From Candidatus Levyibacteriota bacterium (GTDB taxonomy: Bacteria; Patescibacteriota; Microgenomatia; Levybacterales; UBA12049): a stretch of 37,373 nt of DNA. Every line of letters starts with the position of its first letter. Within the stretch, counting starts at the first letter, position 1. The stretch covers positions 1-37,373 of the forward strand of contig DAIDHK010000013.1 in the NCBI GenBank assembly GCA_027459725.1, given 5' to 3'. The position numbers were made by a program, and so were the translations under genes. This document shows, in pieces, positions 163 through 37,373 of this stretch. Under the pieces are notes generated by a model, which worked only from the letters and a program-made list of their open reading frames with translations, did not search any database and was not told the DNA's origin.

Positions 163-428
163 TCTTAAATTTATGTATTATTTTTTCTTCGGGATTCTAC
201 TCTTCCTACTGATTATAGGTTCTTATGTAGAATTCCACTATCTGGGCATAATCCACTAAAATTTCTTCTTTTTTCTTCATTTACTCAATCTTAAGTTGTT
301 AACACTTAGCTTCAAAGCAAAGCCACATTTAGTCTAAGGGATTCTATTAGGCGGTTTATACAGGCAGATTTAAATTTGAACTATGTTAATGCTTCAGGTA
401 TATAGCTTAGAGGTTAAAGGAGGTTTTA
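163..428. other. AT-rich intergenic stretch without a recognised gene
   Basis: No convincing coding frame, tRNA or strong hairpin is visible. It holds several T-rich runs and, at about 366-380, one copy of the AT-rich word (GATTTAAATTTGAA) that resembles the repeats found inside three genes further right. A Shine-Dalgarno-like AAAGGAGGT ends it at 416-425 on the plus strand. Confidence 0.5.
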
Positions 429-476
429 AGAAAATGGGCGCCGCTACGGACAGCTGTCCGCGTAAATGCGGCGCCC
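420..476 (-). terminator. Terminator-like long hairpin closing the hairpin-rich transcript
   Basis: On the minus strand a nine-pair stem (GGGCGCCGC with GCGGCGCCC, 436-476) encloses a perfect palindrome GGACAGCTGTCC (448-459). It is followed by ATTTTCTTAAAA, a short T-rich tail. It lies 20 bases past the stop codon of the 497-853 frame, so it fits as the intrinsic terminator of that unit. The T tract is interrupted, which weakens the call. Confidence 0.5.
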
Positions 477-831
477 AAATCTAGCCCTACGAGCTTCTAC
501 CGGCCCGAAAGCCGGTAGAAGAGGAGATGATCCCGGCCCTTTTGAGCCGGGAATGCGCAAGGATCCTCGGCCAAATTGGCCGAGGAAACGACGTATGGCG
601 CCCTACCAGGCGCCGAGCGAAGCGACAGCTGGGAGCTGTCCTCAGACAGCTCCCAGACCCACTCCTGCCTTTCGGCAGGAGAATGGGTCGGTCTAACAGC
701 CACCTTTCCCTCGGGGAGAAAGGTCAACCGTAGGGACACCGCCGAAGCGGCGTCCCCAGCCGACAGAAGGCCCTCCATCCCTTCCACGGGGATGGATGCA
801 AACTTTTTAGCCAGTCCCTTTCGGGTACTGG
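436..831 (-). ncRNA. Chain of about eleven consecutive strong RNA hairpins (novel structured transcript)
   Basis: Perfect or near-perfect inverted repeats sit back to back at 436-476, 494-521, 531-552, 564-586, 597-614, 629-656, 657-688, 702-724, 733-756, 775-795 and 811-831. The 629-656 stem has 12 perfect pairs with a four-base loop. Read as minus-strand RNA, two loops become GAAA (657-688, 811-831) and one becomes C-UUCG-G (733-756). The 733-756 stem has a G-U pair on the minus strand where the plus strand would have an A-C mismatch, as does the leader hairpin at 902-922. The block is clearly GC-rich inside an AT-rich chromosome. It matches no RNA family I can name. Whether it works as RNA, as mRNA or both is open. 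Confidence 0.6.
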
Positions 832-853
832 CGAACTCGTCGAATATTGACAT
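497..853 (-). CDS. Possible 118-residue protein encoded through the hairpin chain, unknown function
   Basis: The frame starts with an ATG six bases after GAAAGGAG (plus 860-867), one of the few strong Shine-Dalgarno sites in the window, and stops 20 bases before the terminator-like hairpin. The product begins MSIFDEFASTRKGLAKKF. It has no recognised domain, signal peptide or membrane segment, and its middle (RLTFLPEGKVAVRPTHS) could be beta strands. Almost every codon lies in a hairpin stem, and GC-rich palindromic DNA rarely contains stop codons, so frame length alone is weak evidence. The ribosome binding site is the main argument for translation. Alternatives are a non-coding structured RNA or a short regulatory leader peptide frame. 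Confidence 0.45.
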   Translation of the reverse strand: MSIFDEFASTRKGLAKKFASIPVEGMEGLLSAGDAASAVSLRLTFLPEGKVAVRPTHSPAERQEWVWELSEDSSQLSLRSAPGRAPYVVSSANLAEDPCAFPAQKGRDHLLFYRLSGR

Positions 854-859
854 CTCCTG

Positions 860-867
860 CTCCTTTC
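860..867 (-). promoter_or_regulatory. Strong Shine-Dalgarno site of the hairpin-rich gene
   Basis: The minus strand reads GAAAGGAG, then six bases, then ATG at 853. Most genes in this window have no such site, so its presence here argues that the 497-853 frame is translated. Confidence 0.6.
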
Positions 868-940
868 AGAGCTAGAATTAATAAGTGTCTTTTCCGAACA
901 ACAGCAGCGCAAACGCCGCTGTGTCGAATAGGACAGATAT

Positions 941-969
941 AACCTATCATGTCTTATAGTTTTTGTCAA
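941..969 (-). promoter_or_regulatory. Candidate promoter of the hairpin-rich unit
   Basis: A perfect -35 TTGACA (plus 964-969) is followed after 17 bases by TAGGTT (941-946), a weak -10. The predicted leader is about 80 bases and contains the hairpin CAGCGGCG-TTTG-CGCTGCTG (plus 902-922). The -10 match is poor, so the exact start is uncertain. Confidence 0.4.
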
Positions 970-1051
970 TATACTATAACATACATATCTATATTGCTAC
1001 TCTAAGGCTGTATAAGCTCATTTTTAACTTAATACAGGCCTATTCCCTCTC

Positions 1052-36373: not shown

Positions 36374-37373
36374 ATGAAAAAAATCTTTTTCATTAATATA
36401 ACACAGGTTTTTTTCCTAGGACTTTTAATCTTATTTATTACCCCTGTTATTGCCTATGCCTGTAATGAACCTGGTGCTGTCTGCCCGTGTGGCAGTAATG
36501 GACAGTGCCTTCTATCGGTAGGCCCTCCAGCCTTGTATGGCACCAACTGCATAGCCTGTCCTGCACCAACTGCGGTACCTACGTCCCCGCCACCTCCTTC
36601 ATGTAACTCTAGTTGTGTAAACACATATTCCTGTTCCTGGGTGGGAACCGCATGTGTCTGTACACCCTCGACTCAAGGCTGTTGCACATCACAACCTGGA
36701 AGTTGCTCAGGTGCACCCTCAAGCTCATCTACAAGTTCGACCGGTGGCATAAGCTGCCCGCCGGGATTCCATTCAATCCCCGGACAAGCCGGTTGTTATC
36801 CTAACTCAACTGGCTCTTCCTCTTCTAGCACAAGCTCTACCAGTAGTACCAGTAGCACTGGGGGCTCCTGCTCTACTTCTACCTGTGGCGGTTCTACACT
36901 CTGCTGCTTAGGCTATACCTGCTGCTCTGGAGCCTGTACTCCCGGTGGTGCTTGCGCCCCTACTCCCACTCCAACTCCTCAATATCAGGCTCAAGGCTAT
37001 GTCTATGTAGACTTTAATAATGCTGCTAACTCAGGGTACGCATGGCTCTCGCCAAATTCTTCCACCAACTTCATCATGCAATCTCCGCAAAGACCAGTAA
37101 GTAATCTCACCGTCCAGGCTGGAACCTTATCCGGTTCTAACTTTACCGTCCAGTCCTCTACTACCACTGATAACCATGGCTATTACTCCCTCCCTCTACT
37201 TTCTAACTGGAAAATAGCTAATGAGTATATCTCCGTACCCAAATCCTTCCCCGGTTATCATATTGAAAGCCTACCTTCTAGTACTAAACCAGATCCCTAT
37301 ACGCTTGGCGGTTCTACGACTGGTGTCCTCCTCCCTGCTAGCTCTAACTCCCAACCTAATGAACAAATCCCTT
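36374..37373 (+). CDS. Secreted cysteine-rich surface protein, N-terminal part
   Basis: The frame runs from ATG 36374 off the right edge (333 codons seen). A signal peptide (KKIFF.. then FLGLLILFITPVIAYA) ends near residue 29 before a Cys-rich region (24 cysteines between 30 and 194). The region has Pro-rich (TSPPPPS) and Ser/Thr-rich (SSSSSTSSTSSTSST) linkers. From about 206 the sequence (QGYVYVDFNNA.., TTTDNHGYYSLPLL, then SVPKSFPGYHIES) resembles the SdrD B/carboxypeptidase-regulatory-like beta domains of surface proteins. It follows the 35766 gene by eight bases, so they are an operon. Function unknown; likely disulfide-stabilised cell-surface protein. Confidence 0.75.
   Translation, partial: MKKIFFINITQVFFLGLLILFITPVIAYACNEPGAVCPCGSNGQCLLSVGPPALYGTNCIACPAPTAVPTSPPPPSCNSSCVNTYSCSWVGTACVCTPSTQGCCTSQPGSCSGAPSSSSTSSTGGISCPPGFHSIPGQAGCYPNSTGSSSSSTSSTSSTSSTGGSCSTSTCGGSTLCCLGYTCCSGACTPGGACAPTPTPTPQYQAQGYVYVDFNNAANSGYAWLSPNSSTNFIMQSPQRPVSNLTVQAGTLSGSNFTVQSSTTTDNHGYYSLPLLSNWKIANEYISVPKSFPGYHIESLPSSTKPDPYTLGGSTTGVLLPASSNSQPNEQIP

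Follow-up and report, generated by a model that had tools for sequence, protein, structure and literature searches.

The window, by which we mean the whole stretch of 37,373 nt analysed here, carries near its start a block of hairpins on the minus strand (Table 1). About eleven tall hairpins lie across 832-436, with their centres ~35 nt apart, and an open reading frame of 118 codons fills the block. The GC content of the block is 0.60, compared with ~0.38 for its surroundings and for the genome.

Table 1. Features of the hairpin locus (window positions; stems are given as predicted by folding)
Feature	Position	Strand	Description
Stretch without counterpart in G001	262-1025		limits approximate
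Candidate promoter	941-969	-	TTGACA (969-964), 17-nt spacer, TAGGTT (946-941); 9/12 match to consensus, weak -10
Leader hairpin	901-922	-	9-bp stem with a 4-nt loop; -14.7 kcal/mol, z -3.2
Hairpin covering the Shine-Dalgarno sequence	859-872	-	GCUCU-GAAA-GGAGC; GGAG at 863-860; weak alone, z -0.7
ORF, 118 aa	497-853	-	ATG (853) to TAG (499-497)
Hairpin 1	810-832	-	GAAA loop; local fold
Hairpin 2	774-796	-	8 bp; local fold
Hairpin 3	732-757	-	11 bp, C(UUCG)G loop; local fold
Hairpin 4	696-731	-	15 pairs with bulge; local fold
Hairpin 5	656-689	-	14 pairs, GAAA loop; local fold
Hairpin 6	629-656	-	12 perfect pairs, UGAG loop; local fold
Hairpin 7	597-614	-	6-7 bp; local fold
Hairpin 8	564-586	-	10 bp, loop of 3; part of the chain of about eleven
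Hairpin 9	531-552	-	9 bp, AAAA loop; local fold
Hairpin 10	494-521	-	11-12 bp, UUCG loop; contains the stop codon; local fold
Hairpin 11	435-477	-	after the stop; 10-bp outer stem and inner 6-bp hairpin, then ATTTTCTT; -30.8 kcal/mol, z -5.3

The genes flanking the block are 828 nt apart in the window, versus about 105 nt in G001, a genome of the same genus (locus L166). The hairpin gene is therefore either a gain here or a loss in G001. CysS, encoded near the block, puts the genome within or close to Candidatus Levyibacteriota: its best match with a name (DAIDHL010000009.1) is 86% identical, and so is its counterpart in G001.

Several other features were recorded in the window. A mini-gene at 173-259 encodes a hydrophobic peptide of 28 aa (MYYFFFGILLFLLIIGSYVEFHYLGIIH); it is conserved in G001 (L166) and borders the 828-nt gap. 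Positions 1-77 are the end of an IS200/IS605-like element. This end is repeated on contigs C6 (at the contig end) and C14, which accounts for the contig break at the window start. The C14 copy has a TnpA-like ORF, and a 25-nt hairpin of the element end is present in many relatives. A 560-aa gene without a family lies at 1090-2772; in G001 its place is taken by a longer gene (885 aa) with no detectable DNA similarity. At 36374-37373, a GC-rich ORF encoding a Ser/Thr/Cys-rich, exported-looking product runs off the contig end.

We found that the minus-strand RNA is much more strongly folded than its dinucleotide shuffles. The RNA of 975-430 folds at -288.3 kcal/mol, versus -201.4 +/- 7.0 for the shuffles (z -12.45, 0/100), and 67% of its bases are paired when pairs are limited to 60 nt. 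Nearly all of the stems are perfect. There are 7 strong perfect hairpins per 400 nt in the block, compared with at most 2 elsewhere in the same genome (1.49 Mb) and at most 2 per 400 nt in G001 (1.02 Mb). The block is unique for tall perfect stems only, because a fold-based survey revealed weaker relatives (below). A sequence-only reading of this DNA had described dense strong inverted repeats at 831-436 of the minus strand, with stems of up to 12 perfect pairs (as in hairpin 6), in a GC-rich block of an AT-rich genome, and had called such stem density unusual. These descriptions were borne out.

The hairpins differ from one another in sequence, and each is present in a single copy. No REP/BIME-type or other repeated palindrome was found, as the genome has no similar copies of the block hairpins. 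As the sequence-only reading had supposed, the block matched no recognised RNA family: an Rfam search gave none at threshold, and weak matches to RsmY and istR were rejected with scores far under the gathering cut-offs. A generic two-hairpin covariance model (24 synthetic hairpin pairs), built to detect similar arrays, did not recover the window block itself, so that its lack of matches elsewhere carries no weight. Pairing of third codon position with third codon position is common among the block stems and not clearly above chance.

The proposed ends of the transcription unit stood in part. The TTGACA suggested as a promoter is present, but the -10 element is weak and the standard promoter scan did not call the pair of hexamers. 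The terminator-like hairpin at the other end (477-436) is strong, but the T-run that follows it is weak and the terminator scan did not call it; hairpin 11 with ATTTTCTT is a possible terminator. The hairpins of the proposed unit are real, but the intact ORF that fills the block (853-497) had been overlooked.

A protein-coding frame with more structure than its protein requires

We found several signs that the ORF is protein-coding. A Shine-Dalgarno sequence, recognised by inspection, lies 6 nt upstream of the ATG and is the 3' arm of the 872-859 hairpin. When hairpin arrays were randomised but kept the pairs of the block, a frame of 118 codons in this position was open by chance in 2.5% of cases, and any of the six frames was open for at least 118 codons in 10.6%. 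The amino-acid composition of the ORF scored -9.4 bits, versus -43.6 +/- 8.8 for random hairpin arrays (3.9 SD more protein-like), and was the best among the six frames. The best reading of the block is that it is a protein-coding gene rather than a non-coding RNA.

The 118-aa protein had no homologue by sequence in Pfam, NCBIfam, PHROGs, PADLOC or the PDB, and none in overlapping samples of 147 genomes of relatives, 374 of the class and 380 of the phylum. Phages and plasmids searched with tblastn, and viral and genome contigs scanned for peptide patterns, gave nothing credible. Two weak matches (L003 and L132) were judged not to be relatives. An AlphaFold model from the single sequence had a pLDDT of 46. 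Its Foldseek matches all had E > 0.06, and several of these were lipid-binding beta barrels. The model makes a helix and then strands a plausible arrangement, and we claim no fold.

The structure of the ORF exceeds what its protein requires. We permuted synonymous codons so that both the protein and the codon usage were kept. The ORF was more structured than its shuffles with z = -7.3 (200 shuffles, full fold) and z = -7.9 (100 shuffles, local pairs); a rough estimate from 20 shuffles gave z = -5.4. In a regression on GC content over 1,903 ORFs, its residual was -8.1 SD, and that of the next-ranked ORF was -4.7. Of the options listed in the sequence-only reading, an mRNA under strong structural control is the one that fits both the ORF and this excess of structure.

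Sister genes and signs of selection on RNA

We surveyed 3,500 ORFs for genes of the same kind. The 134 candidates were given 20 synonymous shuffles each, so that single z values are rough, and the sister genes described here are outliers chosen from this survey. Two lie side by side in the same genome and were identified with Pfam: a GT2 glycosyltransferase gene (L059:4437-6353; z -7.7) and, next after it, a GH26-family gene (L059:6367-7311; z -7.0). Their neighbours have z values near 0. The region L059:4437-7540 (contig C5, 64437-67540) is hairpin-rich throughout its ~3 kb, including ~200 nt beyond the second stop codon. Two homologous genes come from two same-genus genomes: one encodes a secreted protein of 421 aa (L064:13813-15078; z -7.3), and the other is its homologue in G001 (L088:2941-3933; z -5.3). 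The remaining two are from other MAGs: a lipoprotein-like gene of 199 aa (L230:7247-7846; z -8.4), whose tested neighbours are all ordinary, and a gene of 207 aa (L258:7888-8511, minus strand; z -8.7). Structure extends beyond the stop codon in the window gene, in L059 and in L230. Scans of viral contigs for two of the sister genes found no relatives.

The closest relative of the GT2-GH26 pair (L288, same class; GT2 55% identical) is only mildly structured. The protein therefore does not dictate the structure.

Two further loci were noted. An rplB-like gene (ribosomal protein L2) in G001 (L190:2318-3070) had a synonymous-shuffle z of -5.1 (20 shuffles). In an Uhrbacteria MAG, three long near-perfect palindromes with CGATCG centres are closely spaced in an apparently non-coding stretch (L244:5268-5520).

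We found that stable tetraloops are enriched on the sense strand. With the loop bonuses of the folding program turned off and seven genes pooled, 14 of 47 tetraloops on the sense strand were GNRA or UNCG, versus 2 of 32 on the antisense strand (Fisher p = 0.009). Control ORFs had 2 of 49. The window block also has more G-U pairs on the sense strand (16) than on the antisense strand (4); this asymmetry was absent in the pooled class.

We compared base pairs between homologues. The two secreted-protein genes (L064 and L088) align over 75 codons with 32% amino-acid identity. In this stretch 16 base pairs fell at aligned positions, versus 0.84 in synonymous shuffles (0/300) and 1.1 expected from shifted alignments (0/46 reached 16). 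Among the shared pairs, 4 were compensatory, with both sides changed, and 5 were changed on one side. The covariation check that the sequence-only reading had asked for was positive for this sister pair. The result was weaker when the whole genes were folded (13 shared pairs versus 1.6; the largest of 60 null values was 17). For GT2 and its relative in L288, 32 pairs were shared versus 10.2 expected (0/60 shuffles), which is suggestive of pair conservation. GH26 and its relative in L288 shared 5 pairs versus 2.9 expected, which is not significant. The cysS control was chance-like (33 versus 24.8). The evidence from homologous pairs is thus mixed and not uniform across pairs.

Based on these results we favour, with somewhat more confidence than doubt, the interpretation that the block represents the mRNA of a small gene (118 aa) specific to this lineage, whose chain of sense-strand hairpins would be kept by selection on both RNA and protein. 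Selection on RNA structure is fairly well supported for the class; we infer that it also acts on the window locus.

Alternative explanations and known systems

The main rival is a mutational origin without selection on RNA. Template switching during replication (quasi-palindrome correction), or something similar, might have copied short segments as their reverse complements and so left near-neutral perfect stems in a gene that was acquired recently and is under weak constraint. Such switching creates perfect stems in single events and also repairs them (PMC8794818). This would suit a block whose stems are nearly all perfect and a gene within a stretch that is missing from G001. It would also suit the third-to-third codon register of many of the longest stems, which synonymous tuning alone would not favour. 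We nevertheless consider it unlikely. A strand-blind process on DNA should not enrich GNRA and UNCG loops on the sense strand only, and it would not keep aligned pairs through compensatory change, as in L064 and L088. Comparable stems are also not dispersed over the rest of the genome.

A functional non-coding RNA, acting as a scaffold, sponge or antisense regulator and with a 118-codon frame that happens to be open, is a good deal less probable. GC-rich hairpins are poor in stops, and a frame of this length was open somewhere in about a tenth of the random arrays (10.6%, above); no homologous protein turned up in the collections searched, and a z of -12.5 is typical of structured RNAs. But the non-coding options of the sequence-only reading (a novel structured RNA, a protein sponge or a capsid-like scaffold) are unsupported, because the block is filled by an ORF that has a well-spaced ribosome-binding site and start at its 5' edge, a protein-like composition (z 3.9) and a stop at its 3' edge, and because conserved protein genes of the same genome, GT2 and GH26, have structure of this kind too.

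Palindromes exist in DNA too, and the hairpins could act as cruciforms, as protein-binding palindromes, or as a REP-like mobile element moved by the adjoining IS200-like transposase. Compared with G001 the locus is an insertion, and the IS200/IS605-like end lies at 1-77 of the window. We regard such a function as very improbable, as each hairpin has a sequence of its own that is not found again in the genome, and both the loop bias toward the sense strand and the G-U asymmetry in the window point to RNA. Least probable of all is an alien gene kept unchanged from an organism or RNA-based element with hairpin-rich genes throughout (for example an ssRNA phage-like source): the gene is an orphan with a GC content of 0.60 in a 0.38 genome and, compared with the nearest relative, an insertion, but phage, plasmid and viral collections yielded only chance-level matches of 30 nt, the sister genes encode proteins of cellular kinds (GT2, GH26 and secreted ones), and the GT2 relative that is 55% identical, from the same class, is only mildly structured.

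The interpretation as a structured mRNA has precedents. Selection for secondary structure in coding sequences was reportedly already addressed by Katz and Burge in 2003. Gebert et al. (2019; PMC6544989) described coding sequences in which extremely high secondary structure is selected for. As in their work, individual ORFs here exceed the structure of their synonymous shuffles, and it is the codon order and not the protein that sets the structure; Gebert et al. also saw no correlation across homologues. What they found is statistical, with extreme scores enriched in a set of a million ORFs. In contrast to that set, the window gene is in tall hairpins nearly everywhere, from the start region to beyond the stop, and the class described here has tetraloop enrichment and, in one homologous pair, compensatory change.

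Genes of RNA viruses and RNA phages, with ordered RNA structure on the scale of the genome, likewise have dense local stem-loops throughout their coding RNA. Unlike these, the window gene is DNA-encoded and cellular, and our searches found no viral homology. Rickettsia palindromic elements and REP/BIME hairpins also place palindromes inside or near ORFs, but these are repeated copies of one element, whereas the window hairpins are all different and present once. Hairpins made by template switching (PMC8794818) share a route to perfect stems; that process alone does not predict the loop bias toward the sense strand.

A possible role for hairpin-saturated mRNAs

ORF 853-497 is best read as belonging to a small set of hairpin-saturated mRNAs in this Levyibacteriota-like lineage. 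By analogy with other systems, the purpose of the fold is probably longevity of the message or limited translation. Between ribosomes the message would refold into GC-rich hairpins strung compactly together, several of them with stable tetraloop caps. Ribosomes would open local hairpins singly, and the hairpins would re-close behind them. Such a chain could conceal single-stranded entry sites for nucleases, making the transcript long-lived, and could slow or meter translation, keeping output low. The Shine-Dalgarno sequence, within its own GAAA hairpin, might add to the protection or the metering. The stems might instead be targets of RNase III, which would shorten the life of the mRNA.

Structure in coding regions has been linked to the functional half-life of mRNA in other systems (PMC6883848). 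The window gene would resemble those mRNAs in what its folded coding region does, a changed half-life being the proposed effect; it differs in being a natural bacterial gene.

A broader possibility, which we hold only tentatively and think unlikely on balance, is that some Patescibacteria have a class of hairpin-armoured mRNAs. These would come mostly from surface or exported genes, with whole transcripts folded and often capped by tetraloops, and would serve a common purpose as a previously undescribed form of control. If this is true, the purpose could be very long-lived messages, localisation, or recognition by a dedicated helicase or RNA-binding protein.

Structured coding sequences are known as a statistical phenomenon (PMC6544989). 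What is new is that single whole transcripts are saturated with structure and carry tetraloop and compensatory signatures, an extreme variant of that phenomenon. Selection on the structure of coding regions usually shows only as a weak signal averaged over many genes. In the present cases individual genes are saturated beside ordinary neighbours, with a loop signature on the sense strand. These cases come from a group of bacteria with small genomes, whose RNA biology is largely unknown, and they provide concrete genes with which to ask what strong structure in coding regions does in bacteria.
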